Of a stretch of 64,000 bases of DNA, positions 5,883-61,966 are shown one piece after another. Positions within the stretch are counted from its first letter, which is position 1. Each line of letters starts with the position of its first letter. The translations under genes were made by a program, and so were the position numbers. The DNA is from an uncultured Bacteroidia bacterium (lineage in GTDB: Bacteria > Bacteroidota > Bacteroidia > Bacteroidales > UBA932). The DNA lies in contig CACWOH010000004.1 of NCBI GenBank assembly GCA_902762435.1, positions 87,188 to 151,187 of the forward strand, written 5' to 3'. The notes beneath the pieces are model-generated. The model worked only from the letters and a program-made list of their open reading frames with translations, was not told where the DNA came from and made no database searches.

Positions 5883-6588
5883 AGTCGTCCGTTATCAATG
5901 CCAGGCCCATAAGGACCAGATTGCAAACTACAAAGATGGAATTTTTCATCCGTTTGGCAAAATAAATTGCGTCTCCACCCGTAAATATTACAATACTGTC
6001 CGGCCTGCGCCTGATGTATCCTTCAATTTCAAACATTATGCCCGAAATCACGCCGGACTCCACGGAGCCTGTCAGCGAGTGCCCTTCCGGGAGGATTTTT
6101 TCGGGCGTATCCACGAGCGGAAGGGACTTCGAGTAGCGTTCCAGCGCCTTGAAGCGCGTCCGGCAGCCGGGGGAGATGTTGCCCCCCAGGTAGCGGCCGT
6201 CCCGGCCGAGGAAATCCACCGTCAGCGTCGTTCCGAAGTCGAAGACGCTCACCGGCTTCTCCTTGAAAAGGTAGCCCGCGGCGATCAGTTCGGCCGCCCG
6301 GTCATAGGAAAGGTACTCGGGCAGGTTGTAGCGCAGCAGGTAGTTCGTGTGGGCCCGGTCCAGGATGAGCAGGTGCCCGCAGCGGCCGCGCAGGATCTCT
6401 TCCTCCTCCGGCGAAACGCCTTCTGCGGAAGCCACGGTCAGCACCTCGGGCCGGTCCTTCTCCAGCAGCGACAGCAGGTAGTCCATCATTTTCTCCCCCT
6501 GGTAACGGAAGGTCTTGCCGAGGGTGCTTCCCTCGGCCCAGGCGGCCTTAAGGGCCGTGTTGCCGGTTTCAACCAGGAGATTCGCCAT
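5860..6588 (-). CDS. coaX: Type III pantothenate kinase
   Basis: 242 residues of the ASKHA-fold PanK-III family, which makes 4'-phosphopantothenate in the first committed step of CoA synthesis. Recognisable motifs are LLVETGNT at residues 4-11 (phosphate-binding motif), YLSYDRAAELIAA (the YG.DR-type motif), FDFGTTLTVD and GGNISPG. The first motif normally reads D-x-G-N-T; here the acidic residue is Glu7. Length is normal (240-260). The gene follows mfd in the same direction with 26 nt between them, and overlaps the downstream OMP start. Cytoplasmic. Confidence 0.9.
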   Translation of the reverse strand: MANLLVETGNTALKAAWAEGSTLGKTFRYQGEKMMDYLLSLLEKDRPEVLTVASAEGVSPEEEEILRGRCGHLLILDRAHTNYLLRYNLPEYLSYDRAAELIAAGYLFKEKPVSVFDFGTTLTVDFLGRDGRYLGGNISPGCRTRFKALERYSKSLPLVDTPEKILPEGHSLTGSVESGVISGIMFEIEGYIRRRPDSIVIFTGGDAIYFAKRMKNSIFVVCNLVLMGLALITDDYVEKNLK

Positions 6589-42741: not shown

Positions 42742-42747
42742 ATATCC

Positions 42748-42770
42748 GTCATTCCCGGCCTGACCGGGAA
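42748..42770. repeat. REP-like palindromic element (CCCGG-CCTGA-CCGGG type)
   Basis: GTCATTCCCGGCCTGACCGG and following bases form a short palindrome in the malQ-susB gap. This string type is recurrent in intergenic DNA of many bacteria. Confidence 0.5.
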
Positions 42771-42774
42771 GCTG

Positions 42775-44964: not shown

Positions 44965-44976
44965 GGTCGGGGGTCG

Positions 44977-46233: not shown

Positions 46234-46239
46234 ATGCGC

Positions 46240-48210
46240 TTATCTGTTGAATTCTACGACAAGGGCGCTCTTGGGCGCCACGGTAACGCCGTCCTGCAGG
46301 ACCGTCGCCTCCCCGGTGAGCACGTTCCGCCCCTGCACGGGGCCGGAGACGAACTCGCGGTAGTGGTTCCAGTCCAGCGAGCGCGGCTCGAAGGTGTTGT
46401 TGATGTACACGAAGACCGCCTGGTCGTCGGTGTAGCGGAAGAAGGCGTAGCTGTTGTCCGTGATGTTGTTCGCGCCCACGTTCGCGCGGGACAGGAAATG
46501 CAGGGTCCTGCCCTCCTGCACGGCCTGGTTGCCCTTGCGCCACTGGAAGAGGGTGCGGGCGTAGTCGTGCAGGTCCGCGGCGTCCTTATAGGCGCCCGTG
46601 GCGCCGCTGCGGCCTTCCGCGGAGAAGAGGTCCAGCCCGTCGCCTTCCCAGCCGCCCGGGAAATCGATCCGCTTGGCGCCGTCGTGGCTGGGGCAGTCCT
46701 TGCGCTCCAGGAACATCATCTCGTCGCCGTAGTACAGCTGCGGGATGCCGCGGACGGTCGCCAGCAGCGTGAGGGCCAGTTTCATCCGGTCGGGATCCTC
46801 GCGGAGCACGTCGCCGGTGCGGGCGTGGTCGTGGTTCGCGAAGAAGGTCATCATGTGACTGAGGTCCTTGTACGCGAAGTCCTGGGCCAGCACGGTATAG
46901 ATGCGGGTCATGCCCTCGTCCCAGCCCACGACGTCCTCGGTGAGCGCGCGCTTGATGGCGCTCTCCAGCGGGAAGTCCATGATGGACGGGAGATTGGAGT
47001 TGAAGCCGTTGGCGTTCGGATTGTCCTTCTGCCAGTAGGCCACCTGCGGGATGTTCATGTCCCAGCACTCGCCCACGATGTTCATCTCCGGGTACTCGTC
47101 CGTCACGGCCTTGCACCACTGCGACATCGGGCCGGGCTCGTTGTAGGGATAGGTGTCCACGCGCAGGCCGTCCAGCCCGGCGTACTCGATCCACCACACG
47201 GCCCATTGCTGGAAGTACTTCAGCACGAAGGGATTGTCCAGGTTCATGTCCGGCATCGACGGCACGAACCAGCCGCTCTCCTGCCGCTCCCGGTCACGCA
47301 CCGAGGCGTTGGGGTCCATATACACGGAGAAGAGGGCGTTCATCTGCATGTAGGGCTCGTTCACGTGGTACCAGTCGGCGAACGGAGGGTTCTCCATCCA
47401 CCAGTGGGCGGTGCCGCAGTGGTTGGTGACGATGTCCATGATGACCTTGATCCCCCGCTTGTGCGCTTCGTCCACGAACTGCTTGTAGAGCTCGTTGTCG
47501 CCGAAGCGCGGGTCGATGTGGTAGTAGTCCGCGCAGGCGTAGCCGTGGTAGGACTCCCGCGGCTGGTTGTCCAGCAGCAGCGGGGTGCACCAGATGGCGG
47601 TGGCGCCCAGGTCGGCGATGTAGTCCAGGTGGTTGATCATGCCCTGGATGTCGCCGCCGTGGCGGCTCACGGGGTCCTTGCGGTCCACAGCGTCCGGCGT
47701 TTCGGGCACCTGCCAGGGGCGGGCCGAACCGTCGAAGTACTCGCCGCCCTGCCAGCCCTCGTCATTGTCCCGGAAGGCCGAGGCGAAGCGGTCGGGCATG
47801 ATCAGGTAGATCAGGTCCGCCGTGGTGAAGCTCTTCCGCCCGCGGCTGCCTGGCTCCCGCTCCCGGATCAGGTACGGATACTTGAAGCTCTCGGAGCCTT
47901 TGGAGAAGACGAGCTTGTACTCGCCCGCAGCCTTCACGGCCAGGTCCACGAAGAGGTAATCGGGGCTGTCGGCCTTGTGCAGGGCCTTGACTTCCAGGCC
48001 CTTGCCCTCAACGGCCACGTCGAAGGCGCCGATGCCGGGCCCCTGCACCATCAGCTGCAGGTCCGTGTTCATGCCGGTCCACCAGGACAGGGGTTCCACC
48101 CGCCGGACCTGGTCGTCCGAAGCCTCGGGGACCCCGGAATAGTCGGCCGCCGGCGAACAGGCGATCAGCAGCGCGGCAGCCAGAAGGAGGTATAGGTTTC
48201 GTTTCATCAT
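46240..48210 (-). CDS. susA: GH13 cyclomaltodextrinase/neopullulanase-type lipoprotein (SusA-like)
   Basis: 656 residues with lipobox LLIAC (Cys18). N-terminal beta-sandwich (about 35-125) of the cyclomaltodextrinase-N type, then the GH13 barrel: GLRVDTYPYNEPG (nucleophile), NIVGECWDMN (acid/base), FFANHDHART, and a C-terminal beta domain. Similar architecture and length to SusA (617), which cuts maltodextrins, cyclodextrins and pullulan in the periplasm. Symbol given by similarity and locus context. Follows the GH53 gene after an 81-nt gap that carries a repeat element. Confidence 0.85.
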   Translation of the reverse strand: MMKRNLYLLLAAALLIACSPAADYSGVPEASDDQVRRVEPLSWWTGMNTDLQLMVQGPGIGAFDVAVEGKGLEVKALHKADSPDYLFVDLAVKAAGEYKLVFSKGSESFKYPYLIREREPGSRGRKSFTTADLIYLIMPDRFASAFRDNDEGWQGGEYFDGSARPWQVPETPDAVDRKDPVSRHGGDIQGMINHLDYIADLGATAIWCTPLLLDNQPRESYHGYACADYYHIDPRFGDNELYKQFVDEAHKRGIKVIMDIVTNHCGTAHWWMENPPFADWYHVNEPYMQMNALFSVYMDPNASVRDRERQESGWFVPSMPDMNLDNPFVLKYFQQWAVWWIEYAGLDGLRVDTYPYNEPGPMSQWCKAVTDEYPEMNIVGECWDMNIPQVAYWQKDNPNANGFNSNLPSIMDFPLESAIKRALTEDVVGWDEGMTRIYTVLAQDFAYKDLSHMMTFFANHDHARTGDVLREDPDRMKLALTLLATVRGIPQLYYGDEMMFLERKDCPSHDGAKRIDFPGGWEGDGLDLFSAEGRSGATGAYKDAADLHDYARTLFQWRKGNQAVQEGRTLHFLSRANVGANNITDNSYAFFRYTDDQAVFVYINNTFEPRSLDWNHYREFVSGPVQGRNVLTGEATVLQDGVTVAPKSALVVEFNR

Positions 48211-48267
48211 ATCGGTCAGAGGTTCTTTGGTCGGTGGTTCTCTAAGTATTTGGGTCAGCTGTTTTCT

Positions 48268-48293
48268 GTCATTCTGAGCGCAGCGAAGAATCT
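48268..48293. repeat. Dispersed repeat overlapping the GH53 stop codon
   Basis: GTCATTCTGAGCGCAGCGAA plus GAATCT is a well-known dispersed intergenic sequence whose translation gives the spurious peptide VILSAAKNL. Its right end contributes the GH53 stop codon region. Confidence 0.6.
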
Positions 48294-49323
48294 AATCCGC
48301 GAATGCCTCCAGCGCCGCCGTCGGTTTCCCGTTCGAAAAGGCGCCGTAGTCATAGCCGTTGCGGGCCTTTTCCGCCTCCGGCTCCCAGTAGAAGATGCCC
48401 TCGAACCAGTCGTACTGCGCGGTGTCGGCGAACAGCTGCTGCAGCGCCGCCTTCGTCTTGTCGGGCTGGCTGGCGGGCATCCCGAACTCCACCAGCATCA
48501 CGGGCTTGCCGTAGCTGTCGTGCAGGGCCGGCAGGTTCGCGAGGAACTGCTGCACCTTGGGCTGCCAGTCGGGATAGGCGTTGTTTTCCCAGTAGGAAGG
48601 ATAGAGCGACAGGCCCAGGATGTCGTAGCGGAGCGAACGGCCCTGCATCAGGGAAAGGAACCAGTTGAGCGTCTCCGCCTTCCAGCCGTTGTCCAGGTGC
48701 AGGATCACCTGCGCCTGGGGATACACGGCCTTCACGGCGTCGTAGCCCGCGTGGAAATAGCTGACGAACTGGCCGGGGTTCGTGCCGGCCACCTTGCCGC
48801 TCTCCCAGAGCATGCCGTTGGTGACTTCGTTGCCCACCTGCACCCACGACACGCCTACGCCCTCGTCCTTGAGGGCCTGCAGGACCTCCTGCGTGTGGGC
48901 TTTCACGGCCTCGGCCATTGCGGCGGCGTCCTTGCCCTTCCAGGCGGCGGGCACGTTCTGCTTGCCGGGATCGGCCCAGGAGTCGCTGTAGTGGAAGTCG
49001 ATCATCACCCGGAGGCCCAGGGCCTGCGCGCGTTTCGCCTTTTTCACCACGTCGGCCTTGCCGTTCCAGCCCCCTTCCGGGTTCACCCACACGCGCAGGC
49101 GCACCGCGTTCATCCCGATTTCCTTCATCAGGGCGGTGAGCTCGCGCTCCTGTCCGCCGGCGTTGTAGAACTTGAAGCCCCGGGATTCCATCTCCGTCAC
49201 CCAGCTGATGTCCGCGCCTTTGATGACCGGCGTGGGGATCGGTACGGGCTTGGGGTCGTGTTTGTCGCACGCCCCGAGCAGCATCAGGGCCGCCAGGGCC
49301 CAGTATTTCACGGTCCGGATCAT
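48292..49323 (-). CDS. GH53 endo-beta-1,4-galactanase lipoprotein
   Basis: 343 residues, lipobox LLGAC (Cys19). Family GH53 features: KGADISWVTEME at the start, LRVWVNPEGGWNG, MIDFHYSDSWADPGKQ, the acid/base in WVQVGNEVTNGMLW and the nucleophile in VMLVEFGMP. These enzymes cut beta-1,4-galactan of type I arabinogalactan and pectin side chains. It overlaps the preceding SusG-like gene by ATGA, so it is translated with starch genes even though the substrate differs. Its stop lies in a dispersed repeat. Confidence 0.9.
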   Translation of the reverse strand: MIRTVKYWALAALMLLGACDKHDPKPVPIPTPVIKGADISWVTEMESRGFKFYNAGGQERELTALMKEIGMNAVRLRVWVNPEGGWNGKADVVKKAKRAQALGLRVMIDFHYSDSWADPGKQNVPAAWKGKDAAAMAEAVKAHTQEVLQALKDEGVGVSWVQVGNEVTNGMLWESGKVAGTNPGQFVSYFHAGYDAVKAVYPQAQVILHLDNGWKAETLNWFLSLMQGRSLRYDILGLSLYPSYWENNAYPDWQPKVQQFLANLPALHDSYGKPVMLVEFGMPASQPDKTKAALQQLFADTAQYDWFEGIFYWEPEAEKARNGYDYGAFSNGKPTAALEAFAD

Positions 49324-51296
49324 TGGGCGAACACGGCCGAGGCGTAGGCGCCGAGCGTCAGGGACGTATCGTTCGCGGTGACCACGCCGTTGGAAACCAG
49401 GATCCCGTCGCTGCTGAGTCCGCCGCCGGGCACGTTCACGCTCACCACGCCGGCGCCGAAGTTATGGGCCACCAGCACGGTCTGTCCTTCGCAGCTCATC
49501 GTCCACAGGGCCACGGAATTGTTGGAGGAGCTCACTTCCTGCATCTCGCCGCGGGCGAGGGCCTTGTAGCTGTTGCGCGCCTGCGAGAAGTTCCGGTACA
49601 CGTTCAGCAGCGAGGCTGCGTCGGCGCTCTGCGCCTCCACGCTGATACCGGCGGAAAGCATCGCGTTGTCCACCTTGCCGTCGAGGGCTGCCGTGGGTAC
49701 GGGACCGTCCTTGGTCCACTTGATCGGCGCGCGCACGTATTCGTCACCGCCGCCCTTGTTGCCCCAGTAGCCGAGCTCCTCGCCCTGGTAGATGTAGGGC
49801 TTGCCCGGCGAGGTCAGAAGCACGGCAGCGGCCAGTTTCTCCTTCTCCAGGCTCTTGCCCAGGTCCTCCGCGGCGCGGTCCTCGTCGTGGTTGGTAAGCT
49901 TGATGGCGTCGATGAAGCCCGGGCGCTGCGCCTGGAAGAGGTTCCGGAAATACAGCACCGTCTTGGCGAAATCGTTGCCCTTGGCCTTGTTGATGCGGTC
50001 CTTCAGGGTGTACCAGTAATAGAAGTTGAAATTGGACGGCAGGCCCTGGTAGTAAGGCGCCATCGCTTCGGCGTTGTCGCACCAGGCCTCGCCCACCATA
50101 TAGAAGTCGCCCTGGCCGCCGTTTGCCTTCCAGGTAGTGTTGCAGCGCTCGTACCACTGCTTCAGGAAAGCCACGTTGGCGGCGGTCTGGTTCTGGTAGA
50201 TCCAGATCACGGCGTCGAGCCGCAGGCCCGCCACGCCCATCTTGATCCACTTGTCGGCGGAAGCCGCCAGGTCCTTGAACGCCGCGGACTCCGATGCGGT
50301 GGCGTACGGGCCGTAGTTCAGGTCCGGCATGCTCCGGTCGAAGCTGGCGAAATACTGCAGGTTGGTGCCGCCGAAGGTGAGGTCGTTGGCGGCATCGCCC
50401 TTGACGAGGGTCTTGGCCTTGCCGAATTCCACGACCTGGTCCCCCGACTTGGCGCCCCACTTGTGGTTCCCCCACTCATCGGGATCGTCTTTCACCAGCA
50501 CGCCCCAGGTGTTGTTGACGAAGAGCGTGATTTCATACACGTTGCCGCCCGTCTTGTACATGCGGAAGGGGTTGTTCTCGTAGATGAACCACTTGACCGA
50601 GCTGTCGGAGTTGCTGCCCTGGGCGGGGCCCGAGGACTGCGTGACCGTCAGCTTGGGCTGCGAGGCGTTCGAGACGTCGAGCTTGAAGTGCAGGAAGCCG
50701 TTGTAGCCCAGGTTTCCGCCGGAGGCGGGATACCACTGTCCCATGCCCGGGGTCTTGGACCCGCCGTAGTTGTCGATCTTGCCCGCGGCCACGTCGGCCG
50801 ACGGATTCTCGGACAGCACGTAATAGTCGCGATAGGGACTGGACGGGTCGGAACAGGCGCTCTGGAACCAGGCGTTCTCGCTGCCGGAATGGTTCAGCAC
50901 GTAGTCCATATAGATGCCGATCCCCTTGGCTTTCGCCTTGGAAATCAGGTCCTTGAAGTCGGCTTCCGTGCCGAGTTTGGGGTTGATGGCGCTGTAATCC
51001 TTGACGTTGTAGCCGTGGTAGGACATGGCGTCCTGCACGGGCGAGAGCCACAGGGCGCTCACGCCCAGGCTCTCGAAATAATCAAGGTGCTGGGCCACGC
51101 CTTTGAGGTCGCCCCAGCCGTCGCCGTCGGAATCGGCGAAGCTGTACACGTTCACCTGGTAGGTGACGTCGGCGAGGTGCTCACCCTTCTCGATGTCCGG
51201 CGTTTTGCCGCCGGGGGTTTCGCCGCCGGGCTTGTTGCAGGAGAACAGGCAGAAGGCAACGAGCACAAGGCCCGTCAGGATGCGGAATCGTCTCAT
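49320..51296 (-). CDS. susG: SusG-like outer-membrane GH13 alpha-amylase with CBM58-type insert
   Basis: 658 residues, lipobox LFSC (Cys20) and a Pro/Gly linker. GH13 catalytic residues: GLRLDAVIW, MVGEAWCDN, KLTNHDEDR. Between the B-domain strands there is an insertion of ~110 residues (about 200-310, FLHFKLDVSNAS to WGVLVKDDPDEW) in the place of the CBM58 of SusG (692 residues). SusG is surface-exposed and makes the first cuts in starch. It follows the SusE/F-like gene after 67 nt containing a strong hairpin, and overlaps the GH53 gene. Confidence 0.9.
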   Translation of the reverse strand: MRRFRILTGLVLVAFCLFSCNKPGGETPGGKTPDIEKGEHLADVTYQVNVYSFADSDGDGWGDLKGVAQHLDYFESLGVSALWLSPVQDAMSYHGYNVKDYSAINPKLGTEADFKDLISKAKAKGIGIYMDYVLNHSGSENAWFQSACSDPSSPYRDYYVLSENPSADVAAGKIDNYGGSKTPGMGQWYPASGGNLGYNGFLHFKLDVSNASQPKLTVTQSSGPAQGSNSDSSVKWFIYENNPFRMYKTGGNVYEITLFVNNTWGVLVKDDPDEWGNHKWGAKSGDQVVEFGKAKTLVKGDAANDLTFGGTNLQYFASFDRSMPDLNYGPYATASESAAFKDLAASADKWIKMGVAGLRLDAVIWIYQNQTAANVAFLKQWYERCNTTWKANGGQGDFYMVGEAWCDNAEAMAPYYQGLPSNFNFYYWYTLKDRINKAKGNDFAKTVLYFRNLFQAQRPGFIDAIKLTNHDEDRAAEDLGKSLEKEKLAAAVLLTSPGKPYIYQGEELGYWGNKGGGDEYVRAPIKWTKDGPVPTAALDGKVDNAMLSAGISVEAQSADAASLLNVYRNFSQARNSYKALARGEMQEVSSSNNSVALWTMSCEGQTVLVAHNFGAGVVSVNVPGGGLSSDGILVSNGVVTANDTSLTLGAYASAVFAQ

Positions 51297-51319
51297 ATAG
51301 CGTGTATTTTGAATTGGCA

Positions 51320-51347
51320 GACCGGGGTCCGGTCAGGGACCCCGGTC
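51320..51347. other. Strong intergenic hairpin between susE/F-like and susG-like genes
   Basis: Perfect arms GACCGGGGTCC / GGACCCCGGTC with a 6-nt loop. On the minus strand T-tract lies before, not after, the stem, so it is not a classical terminator; it could block 3'-exonucleases and stabilise the upstream susCDE mRNA. Confidence 0.6.
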
Positions 51348-51363
51348 CGAAAAAAGGTTCAGC

Positions 51364-54003
51364 TTACTTGTTGACCGTGATCGTACCCGCAGCCTCGTCG
51401 AAGACGACGCTGAAGTTGGTCAGGTCTCCGACGGCGATGTTGTCACCGCCGGGCACGCCCTCGAAGGGCTCGCCGGCCGCAGCATAGGCGCCGCCGAAGT
51501 TCACGTCCCATTTGGCGTTCTTGCGGATCTTCCAGCCACCGGAGATGTCCTTGTGGTAGGCGATCCACTTGCCTTCGCCGTCGTAGTACATAAAGTGGTC
51601 GTTGTCCCAGTCGCCGTTCACGCCAATCAGGCCCCAGTAGTTCGTGCTGAAGGTGATGGTGCCGGCCTCGGGATCGTAAACCACCATGTACGTACCTTCC
51701 GCGGGAGCGGAGATGTTGTCGCCGCCGGCCACGGCCTCGAAGGCCTCGTCGGCGCCGGCGCACGCACCGCCGAAGTTCTCGGCCCAGTCACCGCCGAAGC
51801 GGATCTTGATCTGGTCGCCCTCGGCCAGGGGGACGGGCACGCTGTACCACTTGCCGTCGGCGGCGAGGTGCATCGGGATGTCGTTGTTCCAGTTGACCGC
51901 CGGACGGGCGGCGATGGAACCGGTGACGCCGTAGGCCAGGGTGCCGACGGTGCCGTTCAGGGCGTTGTAGACCACCTTGAAGTTGCCGGTGAGGTTGATG
52001 TTGTCACCGCCCGGGATGCCTTCCACGAACTGGCCGACCGCTTCCGGCGTGGCGCCGCCGCGGTTGACGTCCCAGCCGTGGTTGAAGCGCACCTTCCAGC
52101 CCTCGGACTCGACGGACAGCATTTCGCTGATCCAGATGCCCGGGGCCACCTCGGTCATGAAGTGGTCGTTGTCCCAGTCGCCGTTCACGCCGATCACGGA
52201 CCAGGTGTTGGACGGCATGGCCGCATCCACGGTGATGGTCTTCGCGGCCGGGTCGAAGGTCACGATGTACTCGCCCGCCTCGACGTTGATGTTGTCGCCG
52301 CCGGGCACGGCCTCAAAGGCCTCGCCGACAGCAGTCATCACGCCGCCGTAGTTCTCGTCCCAGGCCGCGTTGCGGCGGATCTTGAAGCCGCCTTCCATCT
52401 GCGTGGCCGGGCTGACCCACTTGCCGTTGGTCTCGGTCATCCAGATGTCGTGGTCCCAGTCGCCGTTCACGCCGATCAGGCCGAAGACGTCGCCCTTCTC
52501 CACGGTGATGGTCGGAGCCGCTTCATCGCTGAGGTCGAGCACGGTCTTCCAGAAACCGGCTTCGATGTTGATGTTGTCACCGCCGGGCACGGCCTCGAAC
52601 GGCCGGCCGAGCGCTACCATCACGCCGCCGTAGTTCTCGTCCCAGCCCGCGTCCTTGCGCCACTTGAAGTTCGTCGCTTCCGGCGCGTTGATGTAAGCGG
52701 TCCAGACGCCGTCCTTCTCGGAGGCGATGATGTCGTTGTCCCAGTCGCCGTTGGCGCCGATGACGTTCCAGCCGGTCACCACGACGGGCCCGGGTCCGGG
52801 CTCGTTGCCGCCGATCTTGCCGCTCACGCCGCCGCCGAGGGTCTCGACGACCGTGAAGGTCTGTCCGTCGGGATCGAGGATGAGGTCATAGATGCCGTCT
52901 TCGGGAACCGCCAGGTTCTTGCCGCCGGCCGCTGCCGGGGATTCGCTGCCGAGGTTTACCACGAAGGGCTCCACATCGCCGGGGGCGCCGAAGTTGGTGT
53001 CCCAGCCGGCATCCTTGCGGAACTTGAACTGGTCATCCTTGCTGATCTTGATGCCCTGGGCCACGAAGGTCTTGCCGTTGGTGGTCATCGGGAGGTCGCC
53101 GTCCCAGCTGATTTCGTAGTTGGACAGGGCGCCGATGACGCTCCAGGTGCTGGCCTGGGTGTGCTCGGGATAAGGCAGATAGGCGTCGGTAACGGTAATG
53201 ACCGCGTCGGTGCCGGACAGGTCCAGCCAGAGGTCATAGATACCGTCGGCCGCAACGCCGAGGTTCTTGCCGCCGGCGGCACCGGTCAGTTCGGTATCGA
53301 GGGAGAGCACATACGGCTCCTCGTCGCCGGGGGCGCCATAATTGGTGTCCCAGCCCTGATCCTTGCGGAACTTGAACTGATCGCCCTTCTTGATGGTCAC
53401 GGCCTTCGCGACGAACTTGTCGCCGTCTTCGGTGGCGAACATCTCGAGGTCGCCGTCCCAGTTGATTTCGTAGCTGGACAGGGCGCCGATGACGCTCCAG
53501 GTGCTGGCCTGGGTGTAGTCCTGGTACGGGCTGCCCTGCGGCAGGGTCACGGTAAAGCCGGAGATGGTGTATTTGTCGGAATCCAGATAGCCGTTGCGGC
53601 CGTTGTCCTTGGAAGGATCCTGGATGGAAGCGCGGACCACGATGTCCAGGCTGCCCACCTGGTCTCCGTCGGCATAGCCGAAGAACTGGAGAGCCCGGCT
53701 GATGTTGACGAGGGTGGCGGACAGGGTGCTGCCGTCGTTCTTGGAAGAGATGAGCTTGCTCACGGCCTTGCCGTCCACGCCCACCAGCGCGAGACTGTGG
53801 GTCGGGGCGATCTTGTCGTTGAAACCGAGCTTGAACTCACCCGGGGTATAGGACACGCTGACGTTTTTCGCGCCCACCTCGACGGTCCCGAGGACCGGGG
53901 CGGTGCCCTTCGCAGGGTCGAAGGTAGCCAGCGGCTCCTGAGCGCAGGACGCGGCCAGGAAGGCGATCACGCCTGCAGAAAGGATGGAAAGTATTCTTTT
54001 CAT
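51364..54003 (-). CDS. SusE/SusF-like outer-membrane lipoprotein with seven starch-binding-like modules
   Basis: 879 residues, lipobox AASC (Cys20). Residues ~25-160 are a SusE-type N-terminal domain. Seven related modules follow at about 165-272, 283-387, 409-502, 505-593, 598-690, 693-785 and 788-878. Each has a W-x-VIG or GLIG start, a WD-D/ND strand, an FK-RK or WKIR-type basic strand, GWD-N-G and a PGGDNI turn. SusE has two and SusF three such modules. It would capture starch at the cell surface next to SusC/SusD. Spacing to susD is 12 nt. Confidence 0.88.
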   Translation of the reverse strand: MKRILSILSAGVIAFLAASCAQEPLATFDPAKGTAPVLGTVEVGAKNVSVSYTPGEFKLGFNDKIAPTHSLALVGVDGKAVSKLISSKNDGSTLSATLVNISRALQFFGYADGDQVGSLDIVVRASIQDPSKDNGRNGYLDSDKYTISGFTVTLPQGSPYQDYTQASTWSVIGALSSYEINWDGDLEMFATEDGDKFVAKAVTIKKGDQFKFRKDQGWDTNYGAPGDEEPYVLSLDTELTGAAGGKNLGVAADGIYDLWLDLSGTDAVITVTDAYLPYPEHTQASTWSVIGALSNYEISWDGDLPMTTNGKTFVAQGIKISKDDQFKFRKDAGWDTNFGAPGDVEPFVVNLGSESPAAAGGKNLAVPEDGIYDLILDPDGQTFTVVETLGGGVSGKIGGNEPGPGPVVVTGWNVIGANGDWDNDIIASEKDGVWTAYINAPEATNFKWRKDAGWDENYGGVMVALGRPFEAVPGGDNINIEAGFWKTVLDLSDEAAPTITVEKGDVFGLIGVNGDWDHDIWMTETNGKWVSPATQMEGGFKIRRNAAWDENYGGVMTAVGEAFEAVPGGDNINVEAGEYIVTFDPAAKTITVDAAMPSNTWSVIGVNGDWDNDHFMTEVAPGIWISEMLSVESEGWKVRFNHGWDVNRGGATPEAVGQFVEGIPGGDNINLTGNFKVVYNALNGTVGTLAYGVTGSIAARPAVNWNNDIPMHLAADGKWYSVPVPLAEGDQIKIRFGGDWAENFGGACAGADEAFEAVAGGDNISAPAEGTYMVVYDPEAGTITFSTNYWGLIGVNGDWDNDHFMYYDGEGKWIAYHKDISGGWKIRKNAKWDVNFGGAYAAAGEPFEGVPGGDNIAVGDLTNFSVVFDEAAGTITVNK

Positions 54004-54015
54004 AACGGAAATCGA

Positions 54016-55569
54016 TTAATAGCCGGGATTCTGCTGGAGGTTACTGTTGGCAAGCCGGTCGGAATCCGGAATCGGGAAGAGGTTGCGGTAGTCGTCCACA
54101 GCCTTGCCTTCCTTGACGTTGCCCTTCCACTGCCAGACATACTTGTCGGTGGTGAACATCCCGAAGCGGATGAGGTCGTTGCGGCGCCAGCACTCCTGAT
54201 AGAGTTCGCGGCCGCGCTCGTCGATCACGTCCTGCAGGGTGATGGCCGAGGCGGCGGGCAGGCCGGCGCGCTCGTGCACCTGGTTGTAGGCGGCAAGGCC
54301 GTCGATGGAGGCGCCGCGCACCTGGCACTCGGCCGCCATCAGCAGCACGTCGGCGTAGCGCATCATCGGGAAGTCGGTGTCCACGAAGCCAAGCTCCTGG
54401 CCGGGCTCACCGTCGCTCTTGATGTTGCGGAACTTCATGAAGGCGAAGCCGTTGGTGAAATCGCCGATGTCGTCGATGTCCTTCTGCTGGCCGCTCGTGA
54501 AGAAGAGGCTGCGCTTGTCGTCGGAGCCGAACTTGTTGTAGAACTCGGGCGTGGTGCGGAGGCCGCCCCAGCCGGAGGAGATGCCCATCTCGGCGGGATC
54601 CATGGTGCCGCCGGTGCTGGCGAAAATCAGGTAGTTCGTGACACCGTAGCTGGTGGTGTTCACGCCGTCCTGCTGGATCGCGAAGATGATCTCGTCGGTG
54701 CACTTGTCGTTATCGGCGAGGAAGAGGTCCTGGTAGGCGCTGAACTTCTCGCCGTTCGCCGTGGTGTGCAGGCTGTATCCGTCGTCCATGAGGTCCTTCA
54801 GGACGTCGGCGCACTTCTGCCACTGCGGAGTGCCGGTGAACACCTCGGCGTTGAGGTAGAGCTTGGCGAGGAGGAACTTCGCCACACCCTTGTCGGCGCG
54901 GGCGTAACCGTTGGCGCGCGGAGCGGCCAGGGCGCTGTTGTTGATGAGGTCGAGGAGCTCGTTCTCCAGCCAGCTGTACAGTTCGGCGCGGCTCATCTGC
55001 ACGGGCACGCTGCCCACGATCGAGGTCTCGTCGGCGAACGGGACGCTGCCGAAGTTGTCGATGGCGTGGTAGTAGGCGATGGCGCGCAGCACGCGGGCCT
55101 CGGCGATGTACTCGTCCCGGTTGGCGACATTCTCGCCGTATTTGGCCGCCTCGCGGATGAACTCGTTCGTGGCGGACACCTGCATCAGGATGCGGGAGTA
55201 GAAAGCGTAGATAAAGGTGTCGTCGGTGGTCCAGTTCATCCAGTGGAAGTTCTTGATGGTCTGGTCGTTCCATCCGCAGACCGCCTCGTCGGTGGTCAGC
55301 TCGGAATGGTGGAACAGGCCGCGGATGTACTGGGAGGCGCCGCCGTCGAGACCGGAGATGGACGGATCGCCGTTGGCTCCGTAGTAGCCGGAGGTGGCGA
55401 AGCCCAGGTAGGAGCTGGCCAGGTAGGCCTTGAACTGCGCCTCGGTGGCGAGGGCCTTGTCGGCGGTGTTGGCGTTCGGGTCGATCGGGGTGACGTTCAG
55501 GTCACCGACGCAGGCGGTCAGGCTGAGCGCGGCCGCCAGGGAACCGAGGATGTATTTGATGGTTTTCAT
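54016..55569 (-). CDS. susD: SusD/RagB-family surface glycan-binding lipoprotein
   Basis: 517 residues, lipobox LTAC (Cys20). SusD features: DLNVTPIDPN after the lipobox, TPR-like helices (EFIREAAKYGE, EARVLRAIAYYHAIDNFG), and the C-terminal FPIPDSDRLANSNLQQNPGY, the family hallmark. It caps the SusC barrel and delivers maltooligosaccharides to it. Length is near SusD (551). Follows susC by 13 nt. Confidence 0.95.
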   Translation of the reverse strand: MKTIKYILGSLAAALSLTACVGDLNVTPIDPNANTADKALATEAQFKAYLASSYLGFATSGYYGANGDPSISGLDGGASQYIRGLFHHSELTTDEAVCGWNDQTIKNFHWMNWTTDDTFIYAFYSRILMQVSATNEFIREAAKYGENVANRDEYIAEARVLRAIAYYHAIDNFGSVPFADETSIVGSVPVQMSRAELYSWLENELLDLINNSALAAPRANGYARADKGVAKFLLAKLYLNAEVFTGTPQWQKCADVLKDLMDDGYSLHTTANGEKFSAYQDLFLADNDKCTDEIIFAIQQDGVNTTSYGVTNYLIFASTGGTMDPAEMGISSGWGGLRTTPEFYNKFGSDDKRSLFFTSGQQKDIDDIGDFTNGFAFMKFRNIKSDGEPGQELGFVDTDFPMMRYADVLLMAAECQVRGASIDGLAAYNQVHERAGLPAASAITLQDVIDERGRELYQECWRRNDLIRFGMFTTDKYVWQWKGNVKEGKAVDDYRNLFPIPDSDRLANSNLQQNPGY

Positions 55570-55582
55570 ATGCTATCCTGGA

Positions 55583-58555
55583 TTAGAAGTTGAACTTGAG
55601 TCCGACCACGTAGGTCCGGGGACGCGGATAGAGCGCACCGTCGATGCCGCCGAAGACTTCCGGATCGATGCCGGAGTACTTCGTGAGCGTGCAGATGTTC
55701 TGGACGGTACCGAAGATGTTGAGGGAGGCGGGACGGTCCTGGGTCACGTTGAACAGCTTCGGGAAGGTGTAACCCACGGTGAAGTTGTCCAGCTTGAGGA
55801 AGGAGGCGTTCTCGAGGTAGTAGTCGGACAGGTACTGGGCCTGGGAGAACATCGACTTGGTCGCGGAGGCGACGCGGTTGCCGATGAAGCTGTTGGTCCA
55901 GAGGTCGGCGAGCATCTCGGTGTCGGAGGCGACGTTGTTGTACACCCAGTTGCCGATGGCGGCGTGGCCGGAGAGGGCCGCCGTCCAGTTCTTGTAGGAG
56001 AAACTGGTGTTGAAACCGATGGTCACGTCGGCATCCGGCTTGTGGCCGAGGTACTTGTCGTCGGCCGTGATCTGGCCGTCCTTGTTGCGGTCCACATAGA
56101 CGCCGTTCACGGGGTTGCCGGCGGTGTCATAGACCTGCTGGTAGAGGTAGAAGGTGCGCATCGGATAGCCGACCTGGTGCATCTGCACGTTGTTGCCGGT
56201 ACCGCCGCTGATGCCGCCCGTCTCCACGCCCGTGGCGTTGTCGTCGGAAGCGGTGAGCTTCGTGATCCGGTTCTTGTTGTAGGCGAGGTTGGCTCCGAGG
56301 GTCCAGCTCATGTCACGGGTCTCCACCAGGATCGCGTTGGCGTCGATCTCGAAACCGAGGTTGGTCATCGAGCCGATGTTCGTGTTCAGGTAGTTCGTCA
56401 GGTTGGACAGGCCCGGGACGGGGATGAAGTTCAGGATGTCCTTGGTGTCACGCTTGTAGGCGTCCAGGCTGAAGGTCAGGCGGTCGCCCCAGAAGCCGAA
56501 GTCCAGACCCGCGTTGTAGGTCGTCGTGGTTTCCCACTTGAGGTCGGCGCTGTAGCCGAGGGCCGCGACGGGCTGCACCAGCTGGCCGTCGAAGTAGTAG
56601 CCGGAGCCGAGCTGGGTGGTCAGGAACTGGGCGAAGGTGTCGTAGTAGCCGCCCACTTCCTGCTGGCCGGTCTGGCCCCAGGAAAGACGCAGCTTCAGGG
56701 TGGACATATTGTCGGCGGCCTGCATCCAGTCTTCCTTCTTGACGTTCCAGGCGAAGGCCACGGACGGGAAGATACCCCATTTGTGGTTCTGGAAGCGGGA
56801 AGTACCGTCGGCGCGGACCGTAGCGGTGAGCAGGTACTTGTCGGCGAAGCCGTAGTTGGCGCGGCCGAAGAAGGAGATCAGGAAGAGCTCGCCCTTGTTG
56901 TGGGAGTCGCTCAGGACGGACTTGTCGCTGATGCGGCGGGTGCCGCTGTTGCTCTCGCTGTAGAAGCGCTGCCAGGAATAACCGGCCATCAGGTCCACCA
57001 TATGCTTCTCGGCGAAGGTCTTGTTGTAGTCGGCGTAGAACTCCAGGGTGGTGTTCAGACGGCTGTAGTCATAATCGGTATGGGCGCCGCCGCCGGACTG
57101 GTTGGTGTTGTGGAAGGAAGCCTCGGTTCCCATCCCGATCTCGGTCAGGCCCTTGGACTTGGCCCAGTCCATACCGAGGTTGAGGTTGAGGCGCAGGTCC
57201 TCGAAACCGTGGATCTTGTAGTCGAACTGCGCGTTGCCGATGAAACGGTAGGCGTCGGCCTCGTCTTTCTTGGCGGCGAGCAGGCCCACCGGGTTCATGG
57301 TGGCCATCGTGTTGATGTTGCCGGACAGGTCGTACCAGGTGGTGTAGCCGTTCAGGCCGTTCGGATCCTTGACCGGCTTGGTCGGATCATAGTGGTTGGC
57401 GGCGCCGATGGCGTCCTGGTTGGCGTACCAGTTCTTGGCATAGGTGCCCTTGCCGTTCAGGTTCACGGTGAGGTGCTGGTCGAAGAAGGTCGGGGAGAGG
57501 TTCAGCGACAGGGTGCCGCGGTTCATCTTCGAGCCCTTCAGCGTACCGTTCTGGGAGGTGAAGCCGCCGGAGATACGGTACGGCAGGAAGCCCACGCGGC
57601 CGTTCAGGCTGACGTTTCCGTCATAGGTCGGGGCCACCTGGTAGATCTCGCGCTGCCAGTCGGTGTCGTACAGCTTGCCGTTCAGGCCCAGGTTGGCCTC
57701 GGCGGTGGAATTCATGCCGTAGAAGTCGCGGATGATGTTCACGATGCCGTCCTTGTCCAGGAGCTTGTTGTACTTGGCGATGGTGTTCACGGAGGTGGTG
57801 AAGTCCACGGCGACCTTCGGCAGGGTGGTGCCGGTCTTGGCGCCCTTCTTCGTGGTGATTACGATAACGCCGTTGGAGGCGCGGGAACCGTAGATGGCGG
57901 TCGCGGAGGCGTCCTTCAGCACGGTGAAGCTCTCGATGTCCTCCGGGTTGATGGAAGACAGCGGGTCGGACATGCCGGAGATGCCGTCGTTGGAGACGGG
58001 CAGGCCGTCGATGACGATGAGCGGGTCGTTGGAGGCGTTGATGGAGGAGCCGCCACGGATACGGATGGTGGCGCCGGCGCCCGGCATACCGGAACCGGCG
58101 GTCACGACGACACCCGCGCTCTTGCCGCGGAGGAGGTCGGCCGGCGTGGTGATGACGCCCTTGTTGATCTCGTCGGCCTTGACGGTCGAAACGGATCCGG
58201 TCAGGTCGCTCTTCTTGACGGTACCGTAGCCGATGACCACGACCTCATCGAGGAACTCGCTGTCCTCGGCGAGGGTGATGGTGGCAGGCATCGCGGAAGC
58301 CTTGTAGGTGAGCGTGGTGTAGCCGATGCAGCTCACTTCGACGGTCGCATCGGGAGAAGAAACCCTCAGGGAGAAGTTGCCGTCGATATCCGTCACGGCA
58401 CCATTGGTCGTGCCGGCCTCGATAATGGCGGCTCCGATCACAGGCCCCTGCTGGTCGACGACCACACCCCGGACCACATAGCCTTGGGCGTATGCGGTGG
58501 CGCCCATCATGCCCGAAAGCACGACGGCCGCAAGGATGGATAGGATTTTTTTCAT
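55583..58555 (-). CDS. susC: SusC/RagA-family TonB-dependent receptor
   Basis: 990 residues. Signal peptide, a CarboxypepD-reg-like domain (about 25-105; GNFSLRV, VEVSCIGYTTL), a TonB box/plug region (VVVIGYGTVKKSDLTGSV, RIRGGSSINASNDPLIVIDG) and a 22-strand-type barrel ending PRPRTYVVGLKFNF. It imports starch oligosaccharides across the outer membrane using TonB energy, with SusD as lid. Lies 42 nt after the inner-membrane transporter gene; the gap is a run of AT-rich palindromic sequence. Confidence 0.96.
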   Translation of the reverse strand: MKKILSILAAVVLSGMMGATAYAQGYVVRGVVVDQQGPVIGAAIIEAGTTNGAVTDIDGNFSLRVSSPDATVEVSCIGYTTLTYKASAMPATITLAEDSEFLDEVVVIGYGTVKKSDLTGSVSTVKADEINKGVITTPADLLRGKSAGVVVTAGSGMPGAGATIRIRGGSSINASNDPLIVIDGLPVSNDGISGMSDPLSSINPEDIESFTVLKDASATAIYGSRASNGVIVITTKKGAKTGTTLPKVAVDFTTSVNTIAKYNKLLDKDGIVNIIRDFYGMNSTAEANLGLNGKLYDTDWQREIYQVAPTYDGNVSLNGRVGFLPYRISGGFTSQNGTLKGSKMNRGTLSLNLSPTFFDQHLTVNLNGKGTYAKNWYANQDAIGAANHYDPTKPVKDPNGLNGYTTWYDLSGNINTMATMNPVGLLAAKKDEADAYRFIGNAQFDYKIHGFEDLRLNLNLGMDWAKSKGLTEIGMGTEASFHNTNQSGGGAHTDYDYSRLNTTLEFYADYNKTFAEKHMVDLMAGYSWQRFYSESNSGTRRISDKSVLSDSHNKGELFLISFFGRANYGFADKYLLTATVRADGTSRFQNHKWGIFPSVAFAWNVKKEDWMQAADNMSTLKLRLSWGQTGQQEVGGYYDTFAQFLTTQLGSGYYFDGQLVQPVAALGYSADLKWETTTTYNAGLDFGFWGDRLTFSLDAYKRDTKDILNFIPVPGLSNLTNYLNTNIGSMTNLGFEIDANAILVETRDMSWTLGANLAYNKNRITKLTASDDNATGVETGGISGGTGNNVQMHQVGYPMRTFYLYQQVYDTAGNPVNGVYVDRNKDGQITADDKYLGHKPDADVTIGFNTSFSYKNWTAALSGHAAIGNWVYNNVASDTEMLADLWTNSFIGNRVASATKSMFSQAQYLSDYYLENASFLKLDNFTVGYTFPKLFNVTQDRPASLNIFGTVQNICTLTKYSGIDPEVFGGIDGALYPRPRTYVVGLKFNF

Positions 58556-58597
58556 TTGCGAAATGGTTAGTATGTGATATGATATTATAATATTATA

Positions 58598-59932
58598 TTA
58601 TTTGCTGTGTTCCCGGACGAGGGCCACCGCCAGGCTGCCGCACACGAGCAGCACGCCGGCGATGACGAGCATGTTCGCCTGCACGCCGCCCACGAGCTTG
58701 AGAATCACCCCGCCGAGGGCCGCCGCGATGATCTGCGGCAGGCAGATCGTGCAGTTGAACAGGCCCAGGTAGGAGCCCATGTGCTCGCCGCTGAGCGCGT
58801 TGGTGAGCAGGGTGAACGGCAGGGCCAGCATAGCCGCCCAGGCCGCTCCGATGAGGAAGTACGACACGAACAGCAGGTACTGGTTGTGCACGAAGGCCAC
58901 GGAGATGAATCCGGCTGCGCCGATCAGCAGGCTGACCACATAGGCGAGCCGCAGGGACTTGAACTTCGGCAGCACGAGGGCCCAGAGGATGGAGCCGACC
59001 GCCTGCACGGCGAACACCACGCCCACCCAGTTGCCGGCGGCCTGGTAGCCCTCGGAGGCGGGATCGGTGGTGCCCCAGCAGTTCGCGGCCACGGCGCCGT
59101 TGGTGTAGGTCCACATATACATGAACGCGGCCCAGCAGAAGAACTGCACCAGGCCCACGGTCCAGAAGGTCTTCGGGGCGTGCAGCAGGAGCTTGAAAAG
59201 GCCCGGCTTCTCCTTGGCGTCGGCGGCCTGCTTCTGCGGGTCGATGCCGTGGAAGGCGGCGTACTCTGCCGGCGGCATCTCCTTCACCTTGGCGAAGGTA
59301 TAGAGCACGCAGAGGATGAGGATGGCGGCGCCGCAGTAGAAGCTCCACACCACGGAGGGCGGGATGACGCCCTTCGGAGCGGTGTTGGCGATGCCGATCC
59401 AGGTGAAGAATATCGGGAAGAGGTAGCCCACCAGGCTGCCGGCGTTGCACAGCAGTGACTGGATGGAATAGGCCTGCGCCTTCTGCTCCTCGCCCACCAT
59501 GTCGCCCACCATCATCTTGAAGGGCTGCATGGCCACGTTGATGGAGGTGTCCAGGAAGATCAGGGAGAAGAGCCCGAACCACATCGCGCCGTTGAGGCCC
59601 AGCAGCAGGCGGCTGCTGAAATTGAGGCTGCCGGCGTTCGGCAGGAAGACCATCACGAGCACGGCCACGAGGGCGCCCACGAGCAGATACGGCTTGCGGC
59701 GGCCCATCGCACACCAGGTGCGGTCGGAATACTTGCCGATGAGGGGCTGGACGATCATGCCCATCAGCGGGGGCAGGATCCAGAAGAAACTGAGCTGGTG
59801 CGGATCCGCACCGAGCGTTGCGAAAATACGGCTGATATTGGCGCTTTGCAGGGCGTAGGCAATCTGCACTCCGAAAAACCCGAAGCTGAGATTCCACATC
59901 TGCCAGAAGGTGAGCTTGCTCTTGGTTTGCAT
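58598..59932 (-). CDS. MFS maltose/maltodextrin transporter
   Basis: 444 residues from the Met of MQTKSKLTFWQ (59932); the longer open frame upstream is not protein-like. Twelve membrane helices with GKYSDRTWCAMGRRKPYLL, the MFS D-R-x-G-R-R/K type loop between helices 2 and 3, and NVAMQPFKMMVGDMVG, as in the SLC45/sucrose-maltose group of Bacteroidetes MFS. It would bring maltose and glucose oligomers from periplasm to cytoplasm for MalQ. First gene of the leftward starch locus and the gene nearest to the two LytTR boxes. Confidence 0.87.
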   Translation of the reverse strand: MQTKSKLTFWQMWNLSFGFFGVQIAYALQSANISRIFATLGADPHQLSFFWILPPLMGMIVQPLIGKYSDRTWCAMGRRKPYLLVGALVAVLVMVFLPNAGSLNFSSRLLLGLNGAMWFGLFSLIFLDTSINVAMQPFKMMVGDMVGEEQKAQAYSIQSLLCNAGSLVGYLFPIFFTWIGIANTAPKGVIPPSVVWSFYCGAAILILCVLYTFAKVKEMPPAEYAAFHGIDPQKQAADAKEKPGLFKLLLHAPKTFWTVGLVQFFCWAAFMYMWTYTNGAVAANCWGTTDPASEGYQAAGNWVGVVFAVQAVGSILWALVLPKFKSLRLAYVVSLLIGAAGFISVAFVHNQYLLFVSYFLIGAAWAAMLALPFTLLTNALSGEHMGSYLGLFNCTICLPQIIAAALGGVILKLVGGVQANMLVIAGVLLVCGSLAVALVREHSK

Positions 59933-59954
59933 TTCAGTGTTATTGACGTCGGCG

Positions 59955-59962
59955 CAAAGTTT
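59955..59962 (-). promoter_or_regulatory. Likely -7 element of the starch locus
   Basis: Minus strand AAACTTTG matches TAnnTTTG except the first base, 22 nt before the transporter ATG. The weak match fits an activator-dependent promoter. Confidence 0.45.
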
Positions 59963-59995
59963 ATAATTCTTACGCGCGTGAAAAAATCTAAAAGG

Positions 59996-60025
59996 ATGAA
60001 CGGTAGAAATTTCGGGATGAATGGT
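59996..60025 (-). promoter_or_regulatory. Tandem LytTR boxes upstream of the starch locus
   Basis: On the minus strand ACCATTCAT (60017-60025) and ACCGTTCAT (59996-60004) are direct repeats with a 12-bp spacer. The second fits the LytTR consensus [TA][AC][CA]GTTN[AG][TG] at every position, the first at all but one. They end 33 bp upstream of the likely -7 element. Confidence 0.65.
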
Positions 60026-60065
60026 CGGATTGGTGCGTTTTTTTATTATCTTGCTCACGGTTATT

Positions 60066-61205
60066 ATGCGGATTTCAAAAGAAGGATGGATTATCCACGG
60101 CTTCGCGCTGTTGCACGCGGCCGTCGCGCTGGGCTGCCGGCTGGGCGGCCTGGCGGACGAGATGATGCTCACCCTGCTCACGATGCTGATGGTCGTGCTG
60201 CTGTGCCTGCGCTGCCGGGTCAGCGGCCTGATGATGGCCGTCTCCGTGCTGGCCGTCAACCTGGTCGGCGTGGTGCTCGGCCACGGGACGGCGCGGCTGT
60301 TCTACGGTTTCACGGACTCCCCGCTGGTCATCTACCCGCTCTCCACCTTCGTGAGCACGGAAATCATCGGCTGGACGATGCTGCTGATCGCCCGCGGCCA
60401 CGCCCGCAAGCACACGGTGGGCCCGGAGCAGATGGCCTCCTCGCTGATCTGGCTGCTGATCGCCTTCGTGGTCATCCTCATCACCCGCCTGGCCATCCTG
60501 CTGCTCTATTCCCAGAGCTGGGAGGGGCTCAATACCACCCTTACCATCCTGCTGGACTACTCCGTGACCCTCGCCGTGGTCGTGGTGGTGGCCCAGTACG
60601 CCCTGCGCCTGCAGCAGCGCGCGCTGGCGGCCTCCGAAAAGGCCAACCTGGCGCAGTACCGCTACCATAAGCTCAAGCAGCAGGTGAACCCGCATTTCCT
60701 GTTCAACTCCCTGAATGTGCTGGACTATATGATCCAGGAGCAGCGGCCGGAAGACGCGAGCCGCTACACCCACAAGCTCGCCGAGGTGTACCGCTACATG
60801 ATCAAGAGTGAAGATGAGACCACCGTGCGCCTGCGCGACGAGATGGAATTCGTGTCGCAGTATGCCGACCTGCTCAAGGTCCGCTTCCCGGAGGGGCTGG
60901 AGGTGGAGACGGACATCCCCGAAGAGGCGATGTCCCGCTCGGTCGTGCCCTGCTGCATGCAACTGCTGGTGGAGAACGCCACCAAGCACAACGCCGTGCA
61001 GCCCGACCACCCGCTCCGCGTGCGGATCACCGCGGACGCCGACAGCGTGACCGTGACCAACAACCGCATCCCGAAGCTCCGCCGCACGGCATCCACGGGC
61101 CTGGGCCTGCAGTACATCCGCCAGCAATACCGGGACCTCTCCGGCAAATCCATTACCGTCCTCGAGGACGAACACAACTACACCGTCACCCTGCCGCTCC
61201 TATGA
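60066..61205 (+). CDS. LytS/YehU-type sensor histidine kinase
   Basis: 379 residues from the ATG at 60066 (an ATG at 60021 in frame is possible). About six membrane helices span residues 5-185 with no large periplasmic sensor. The kinase core is the His_kinase type of the LytS family: QQVNPHFLFNSLNVLDYMI carries the phosphorylated His, followed by an HATPase domain (MQLLVENATKHNAV, STGLGLQYIRQQY). It overlaps the LytTR regulator by ATGA. The signal is unknown; membrane-embedded sensing is likely. Divergent to the starch locus. Confidence 0.9.
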   Translation: MRISKEGWIIHGFALLHAAVALGCRLGGLADEMMLTLLTMLMVVLLCLRCRVSGLMMAVSVLAVNLVGVVLGHGTARLFYGFTDSPLVIYPLSTFVSTEIIGWTMLLIARGHARKHTVGPEQMASSLIWLLIAFVVILITRLAILLLYSQSWEGLNTTLTILLDYSVTLAVVVVVAQYALRLQQRALAASEKANLAQYRYHKLKQQVNPHFLFNSLNVLDYMIQEQRPEDASRYTHKLAEVYRYMIKSEDETTVRLRDEMEFVSQYADLLKVRFPEGLEVETDIPEEAMSRSVVPCCMQLLVENATKHNAVQPDHPLRVRITADADSVTVTNNRIPKLRRTASTGLGLQYIRQQYRDLSGKSITVLEDEHNYTVTLPLL

Positions 61206-61966
61206 TGAAAGCCCTGATTGTCGAAGACGAGCGAATGGCGCAGGCGCAGCTCGTCCGCCTGCTGAAAGCCCACTTCCCCGACATCGAGGTGGTGCAGGCC
61301 ACCGATTCCGTCCGGTCCACGGTGGAATACCTGTCCGCGGACCCGCCCCTGGACCTCATCTTCATGGATGTGGAACTCTCCGACGGGGAATGCTTCGAGA
61401 TCTTCCGCCAGGTGGCCGTGCACGCCCAGGTCATCATGACCACCGCCTACGACTCCTATGCGCTCAAGGCCTTCGAGGCGGGCAGCATCGACTACCTCCT
61501 CAAGCCCATCGGCGAGGATGCGCTCCGGCGCGCGGTGGGCCGCTGCCGGCAGCGGCTCCAGAGCGCACCTGCCGCCGGGATCGACGTCGAGAAACTGCTC
61601 GCGGCTGTGACAGGAACCGCCAAAAAGCAATACCGGGAGCGCTTTGTCGTGTACGTGGGCGACCGCATCATCCCCGTCCGGACGGATGAGATCGCCGGAT
61701 TCTTCTCCGAGGAAAAGGCGAACTACCTGTTTACCGGATCGGGGGAACGCTACCTCGTGGACAGCACGCTGGACGCCCTGGAGGGCGAACTGGACCCGGA
61801 ACGCTTCTTCCGCATCTCGCGCGGGGCGATCGTCGCGCGGAGCGCCGTCCGCAGCGTCAGCCGCCACTTCAGCGGCCGCCTGAAGCTGGAACTGGATCCC
61901 GCGCCGCCCTTCGAGCCCACGGTTTCCCGCGCCCGCGTGGACGATTTCCTGAAGTGGCTGGAATAG
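61202..61966 (+). CDS. LytTR-family response regulator
   Basis: 254 residues. Receiver domain (1-~120) with acidic pocket VEDE, phosphoacceptor Asp in LIFMDVELSDG, and the Lys of YLLKPI. The C-terminal LytTR DNA-binding domain (about 142-254) shows RIIPVRTDEIAGFFSEEK, FRISRGAIVARSAVRSVSR. LytTR proteins bind paired 9-bp direct repeats; such a pair lies 1.2 kb upstream in the divergent promoter. Autoregulation and control of the starch genes are inferred. Its stop directly abuts the convergent SDR stop. Confidence 0.92.
   Translation: MMKALIVEDERMAQAQLVRLLKAHFPDIEVVQATDSVRSTVEYLSADPPLDLIFMDVELSDGECFEIFRQVAVHAQVIMTTAYDSYALKAFEAGSIDYLLKPIGEDALRRAVGRCRQRLQSAPAAGIDVEKLLAAVTGTAKKQYRERFVVYVGDRIIPVRTDEIAGFFSEEKANYLFTGSGERYLVDSTLDALEGELDPERFFRISRGAIVARSAVRSVSRHFSGRLKLELDPAPPFEPTVSRARVDDFLKWLE

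Follow-up and report, generated by a model that had tools for sequence, protein, structure and literature searches.

Introduction

LytTR response regulators act at promoters that carry two direct repeats of 9–11 nt, 11–13 nt apart (PMC4847170). Judged by analogy, the closest known case to the locus described here is YpdA/YpdB–yhjX of Escherichia coli, in which the regulator is likewise a LytTR response regulator, the target is an MFS gene, and two direct repeats GGCATTTCAT stand 21 bp apart in the published oligonucleotide (PMC4847170). Nearly the same box is found in some relatives of our locus (GCATTTCATC in L078). The two systems differ in that the pyruvate-responsive YpdA contains 5TM-LYT and GAF domains (PMC5552118), whereas the kinase here begins with a four-helix module; here, too, the boxes precede a whole starch operon, in a different phylum and at a different promoter type.

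In gut Bacteroidota, the regulators of starch loci have been described as SusR-like, hybrid two-component or sigma/anti-sigma systems (PMC3878776). SusR of Bacteroides thetaiotaomicron also regulates a starch utilisation operon and has direct-repeat sites, but it is one membrane protein, and the predicted sites of its family lie 67 or 77 bp apart (PMC3878776), in contrast to the LytTR protein and 21 bp repeat of this locus. CoxC joins a membrane module to a LytTR domain, as do the regulators of one genus considered below (g15); its module, however, is a seven-helix MHYT domain, and it senses CO and represses (PMC11347149). The LRS-like operons of Bacteroides share with the present system LytTR proteins with membrane segments, direct repeats and a Bacteroides-type promoter, but have an NfeD/DUF2154 partner and 11-bp repeats 11 bp apart (PMC6193735). 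Glycan loci with a neighbouring LytTR gene have a precedent: in the Roseburia arabinoxylan locus Ros-7, the annotated genes include those for a histidine kinase and a LytTR response regulator (PMC5320581); that locus differs in belonging to the Firmicutes, in its arabinoxylan substrate, in its ABC and GPH transport, and in having AraC too. In the passages searched, from a largely open-access literature, LytTR control of a starch locus in Bacteroidota was not described, and no paper treating LytTR together with SusR was found.

The starch locus and its neighbouring regulator genes

All coordinates without a locus label refer to the window, the whole 64,000-nucleotide stretch of DNA that was analysed. 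Its minus strand holds a starch locus at 40879–59932, comprising genes for an MFS sugar transporter (58598–59932; Pfam MFS_1 / MFS_2), SusC, SusD, a SusE/F-like protein, a GH13 with SusG_CBM58, a GH53, a GH13 of the cyclomaltodextrinase type, a further GH13, a GH97 and a GH77. These genes probably form one transcript, with the MFS gene first. As in Sus-type starch utilisation loci, SusC and SusD homologues stand together with starch-active GH13 and GH97 enzymes: SusC matched TIGR04056 (2.5e-226), SusD matched NF033071 at 2.5e-116, which is still under that model's cut-off, as well as SusD_RagB, and the SusG_CBM58 domain was found on a GH13 (7.8e-23). The SusE/F-like protein, for which Pfam gave no match, is named by position. 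The GH53 gene (48292–49323), of a galactanase family, lies within the operon, and the GH77 protein (40879–42741) has 620 aa without CBM20, where that of a relative has 842 aa with CBM20.

On the plus strand, divergent from the MFS gene, are genes for a 379-aa histidine kinase (60066–61205; PF06580, 3.3e-24) and a response regulator (61202–61966) with receiver (PF00072, 5.8e-15) and LytTR (PF04397, 5.3e-17) domains, both above cut-off. An earlier, sequence-only reading had named these neighbours a LytS-type kinase and a LytTR regulator. Pfam bears out the kinase and the regulator, but the kinase is not a canonical LytS, having PF06580 without the PF07694 or GAF domains that define that type. 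It belongs with the PF06580 group of histidine kinases, carrying the domain and an NPHF motif; we take this motif to mark the phospho-acceptor, which would be His210. In the regulator, Asp56 of the receiver is invariant among 18 aligned sequences.

The gap between the two gene sets contains two 9-mers on the minus strand, a distal box ACCATTCAT (60017–60025) and a proximal box ACCGTTCAT (59996–60004), separated by 12 bp and hence 21 bp in register. We regard them as putative LytTR sites, as their motif recurs in relatives; their length and separation fall within the ranges given above for LytTR response regulators. The pair ACCATTCAT-N12-ACCGTTCAT spans 59996–60025 and is directed at the MFS start (59932), so the claim of exact direct repeats 12 bp apart, facing the MFS–susC operon, is borne out. 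The same reading had placed the proximal box 33 bp upstream of a weak -7 element, and this element is there as AAACTTTG (59955–59962, minus strand), matching TAnnTTTG at 5/6 bases, with its first base 42 bp from that of the proximal box. With three mismatches or fewer allowed, the box pair is unique in the 64 kb window (shuffles predict 0.05 matches), and the 2.30 Mb genome contains no second exact copy and four others at 3 mismatches. The family motif derived below scores 28.1 bits at this site and 14.4 bits at the next-best pair of the window.

The boxes are conserved at the MFS promoter

A relative of the regulator was found at 1e-40 in 67/149 genomes of the same family, many of them fragmented. 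We fetched 40 stretches around such matches, 36 of which contain an MFS gene, usually then followed by SusC and SusD; among the genome's LytTR proteins, the 61202–61966 regulator was chosen because this neighbourhood is conserved. From a genome collection, 25 of 80 named loci have an MFS gene near the regulator, including those of Alistipes sp. CHKCI003 (L081), Candidatus Cryptobacteroides caccocaballi and Candidatus Coprenecus merdigallinarum. In the remaining 55, which take in matches from Flavobacteriia and Chitinophagales as well as some Bacteroidales on short contigs, no MFS match was seen in the DNA examined. At two loci the MFS gene lies about 5 kb (L071) and 2 kb (L075) beyond the regulator gene.

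Loss of the boxes in relatives that keep the genes had been named beforehand as a result that would refute the sequence-only reading; the boxes are kept, and the reading was not refuted. In a motif-blind spacing test, the 200 bp upstream of each MFS gene were compared with themselves for matches at 8/10 bases. A first set gave a self-match at 21 bp in 30/37 regions (shuffle mean 2.45, maximum 6). After 62 upstream regions had been reduced to 52 by removing duplicates, 43/52 matched themselves at 21 bp, against about 4 (0 to 8) at other spacings; a spacing of 42 gave 14/52, as expected of triple arrays, and three boxes stand in register in 18/57 relatives. The boxes are short and AT-rich, so chance or promoter composition might be invoked; this explanation is refuted by the spacing test, the shuffles, genome-wide uniqueness and motif specificity also speak against it, and we consider its probability negligible.

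After refinement the box approximates NCMRTTCRTC. In the 1.296 Mb of family loci scanned, 65 pairs scored 18 bits or more; 64 stand at an MFS promoter and one upstream of GH77, a count in which triple arrays enter more than once and some promoters give two pairs; the reversed sequence gave 2.

Gene order varies among the 52 loci: the regulator pair is divergent from the MFS gene in 28 and co-directional in 17, a regulator alone is divergent in 6, and one has another order. The best pair nonetheless ends 46–152 bp upstream of the MFS gene in all arrangements, so the boxes go with the MFS promoter whatever direction the regulator genes take. Some sites are weak, scoring 9.3 (L073) and 9.2 bits (L319), and some are distant, lying 152 (L094) and 132 bp (L097) from the start. 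These arrangements bear on the idea that the boxes serve the kinase–regulator operon itself, their closeness to the MFS gene being incidental to a shared divergent gap. In the source window the distal box is 40 bp upstream of the kinase start, and autoregulation is common among LytTR systems (PMC6193735). Among the 23 loci in which kinase and MFS gene are not divergent, however, a search of the 1500 bp before the kinase match gave a pair exceeding 12 bits in just 1. Autoregulation was therefore rejected as the main role of the boxes, and we hold it to be very improbable.

The boxes are coupled to an adjacent LytTR gene

A further 20 MFS loci were taken from genomes without a regulator match at 1e-40. 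Five proved to be regulator-adjacent after all, four through fusions of a membrane module to LytTR and one (L232) through a regulator cut by the contig end, and 15 did not. Each locus was scored leave-one-out against 99% and 99.9% shuffle limits. The motif exceeded the 99% limit in 57/57 regulator-adjacent loci (56/57 at 99.9%) and in 0/15 regulator-less ones, a set that is partly related, 6/15 coming from one genus, and that includes one locus (L225) with almost no upstream contig in which a neighbour could be seen. In two regulator-less loci (L213, L214) the LytTR genes are missing and a gene with a PF00144 beta-lactamase fold stands divergent from the MFS gene instead; it was first suspected of being a SusR-like regulator and proved not to be one.

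Nine more MFS loci were then added. Two are regulator-adjacent, lie outside the training set and pass (L319, 9.2 bits; L325, 17.4 bits). Four have no regulator nearby, three of these lacking a pair and one (L320) having a strong one. Three were set aside: L323 with only 76 bp upstream, L327 without its MFS start, and L326, whose contig begins 1.4 kb upstream of a 17.1-bit pair while the genome's regulator lies at another contig's edge. In L327, a frame at 5428–6168 begins as the regulator and finishes as the MFS protein; it comes from one fragmented genome and reflects a deletion or an assembly fault. The added loci give 2/2 with and 1/4 without a neighbouring regulator gene, and overall the motif is present at 59/59 loci beside a LytTR gene and at 1/19 without one nearby.

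The exception, L320 (9400–13118), is an MFS gene with a 23.0-bit pair and a 5-of-6 -7 element at 42, and no LytTR gene was found in the 9.6 kb of contig upstream. A relative of the regulator is encoded on a different contig of that genome and may act from that position. By sequence look, we take the frames after this MFS gene to resemble phosphoglucomutase and a GH65-type enzyme. L320 lowered our confidence in the best explanation from 0.82 to 0.80.

The exception also bears on whether the boxes are bound by another of the genome's LytTR proteins, or by a factor outside that group. The source genome encodes 7 LytTR-domain proteins, two of its other promoters have a similar pair and -7 element, one of them near another kinase–LytTR pair, and L320 has boxes without a neighbouring regulator. 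Against this, presence of the pair goes with an adjacent LytTR gene in the proportions just given, and does so too at loci that have just the one-component form; we judge another binder to be unlikely.

Promoter geometry

Bacteroides promoters are recognised by their sigma factor through TAnnTTTG at -7 and TTTG at -33 (PMC7366714). Measured from where the proximal box begins, a -7 match of at least 5/6 starts at 42 or 43 bp in 45/57 loci, and in 51/57 one falls within 36–53 bp (shuffle mean 15, maximum 21), while the stretch between boxes and -7 shows little conservation. None of the 45 loci with -7 at 42 or 43 has a perfect -33 alongside it. When the best -7 was instead sought by a free scan, a perfect -33 accompanied it in 2/56 regulator-adjacent and 6/13 regulator-less promoters, five of these six coming from one genus.

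This layout suggests an activator that replaces the -33 contact, and activation fits because the distance from box to -7 is fixed at 42–43 bp and the -33 element is rare. The opposite sign of control, in which the regulator would repress the operon, has a precedent in LytTR proteins such as CoxC, whose boxes lie over the -35 region (PMC11347149). Here, in contrast, the boxes are upstream of where a -33 element would sit, most promoters have no perfect -33, and a regulator that touches RNA polymerase would need just such a fixed distance. We therefore think repression improbable, about as much so as another binder.

A putative four-helix sensor module in three formats

LytS kinases have 5TM-5TMR_LYT (PF07694) and GAF input domains (PMC5552118), whereas Pfam gave only PF06580 for the kinase at 60066–61205, with no PF07694 and no GAF. 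Its first ~115 residues (60066–60410, plus strand), which match no Pfam family, are predicted to form four helices and appear to be a membrane input module; in the structural model the mean pLDDT is 84 for residues 1–207. A fold search with the N-terminal part of the kinase returned no match with E below 0.4.

The same module appears to occur as a separate protein. A small frame ends beside the kinase start in 28/54 loci examined, some of these surely being chance frames, and 17 of the 28 encode 117–136 aa, including all three loci of the other family described below. Six of the 17, together with one from L306, were aligned to the kinase N-terminus and have F-x3-H and LTxLT patterns in common with it; the three proteins tested gave no significant Pfam match. 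Examples are the genes at L303:15488–15856 and L304:6269–6637, the counterpart in the source window being fused to the kinase.

In genus g15 the regulator is a single 250-aa protein in which a membrane module is joined to a LytTR domain, with neither kinase nor receiver. The module shows 26% identity over 91 residues (E 6e-11) and the LytTR domain 53% over 116; the LytTR domain is the DNA-binding part common to two-component and one-component loci. PF04397 is the sole Pfam domain in 4/4 fusion proteins; these four have no MHYT domain (PF03707) and so fall outside the MHYT–LytTR subfamily of CoxC. The fusion genes are divergent from the starch MFS gene (L215:9217–9969, L217:8169–8921, L218:10495–11247, L220:4060–4812). 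Of 16 MFS matches in g15, 15 were scored, one being without its start, and boxes are present in 5/5 loci with the fusion protein and 0/10 without it, a contrast that may reflect one gain or loss, as the loci are not independent.

We somewhat favour the view that these proteins are a further class of Bacteroidota glycan-locus regulator, next to SusR, hybrid two-component and sigma/anti-sigma systems. In this class a new four-helix membrane sensor would be coupled to LytTR output in three formats: as a protein of its own that works with a kinase, as part of the kinase, or attached directly to LytTR with neither kinase nor receiver. In each format the boxes read at the starch operon would be spaced by 21 bp.

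Occurrence beyond the family and at other promoters

Across the order, a relative of the regulator was found at 1e-40 in 144/295 genomes, and 28 newly fetched loci from this search were scanned for the pair. The three best loci from another family, outside the motif training (L274–L276), have the pair directly after the regulator, at 19.9, 24.5 and 17.9 bits. In larger stretches around these loci, starch genes stand behind the pair: L302 has a pullulanase-type GH13 and an MFS gene, L303 has both of these with SusC and SusD, and L304 has SusC and SusD. Each of L302, L303 and L304 has a 5/6 -7 element at 42, making 3/3 starch-linked loci outside the training family. The remaining 25 include two (L285, L294) whose pair reaches 14 bits or more with no starch gene seen nearby, and one (L287), from the source's own family and with an MFS gene, that is the same locus as L319 (9.2 bits). 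Three further stretches without starch genes contain no pair.

Within the family, five loci have a pair and a -7 element upstream of GH77. An extension of the regulon to GH77 on the strength of L061 was rejected: the same sequence bar one base occurs in G139, where it runs into the 3' end of a coding frame; that genome has no regulator at 1e-40; L062 is a close variant of L061. At most L070 and L119 are likely to be GH77 members of the regulon.

Two other promoters of the source genome have a pair and a -7 element, with boxes that read TTCGTCGA; we suspect that these are served by another LytTR protein and not by the 61202–61966 regulator. One (G000:C8:25690–25760; L233 11691–11761) has a 6-of-6 -7 element at 42 and lies between YebC-like and DUF4412 genes. 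The pair is intergenic, before the DUF4412 gene; a first appearance of coding sequence was ruled out by this position between two genes. The second (G000:C12:58314–58380; L267 8315–8381) is upstream of another kinase–LytTR pair on the same strand. L273 shows a similar promoter before an outer-membrane-type gene and a kinase–LytTR pair.

Proposed mechanism and significance

Our main reading, to which we assign a probability of about 0.8, is that the response regulator binds the two boxes and so activates the starch operon, whose promoter has no -33 element. The four-helix membrane module of the kinase would sense a signal tied to the availability of starch or maltodextrin, and the kinase would phosphorylate the LytTR response regulator at Asp56. 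The regulator would then bind the boxes head-to-tail, 21 bp or two helix turns apart, and bring RNA polymerase to the promoter, switching on the MFS–susCDEF–GH13–GH97–GH77 operon. As to the molecule sensed, we can offer a speculation: the substrate or the activity of the MFS transporter is a candidate, because the MFS gene is so steadily present.

Starch loci are a model for glycan sensing by gut Bacteroidota. A putative LytTR switch, conserved across two families of a single order and fixed to the base pair in its promoter geometry, would allow their control to be predicted from sequence for many species not yet cultured. The occurrence of the sensor module in three formats indicates which part does the sensing, and the kinase-free form would be a simple system for finding its ligand. 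If the class proposed here is real, the passage between a two-component and a one-component system would be recorded at one conserved promoter.
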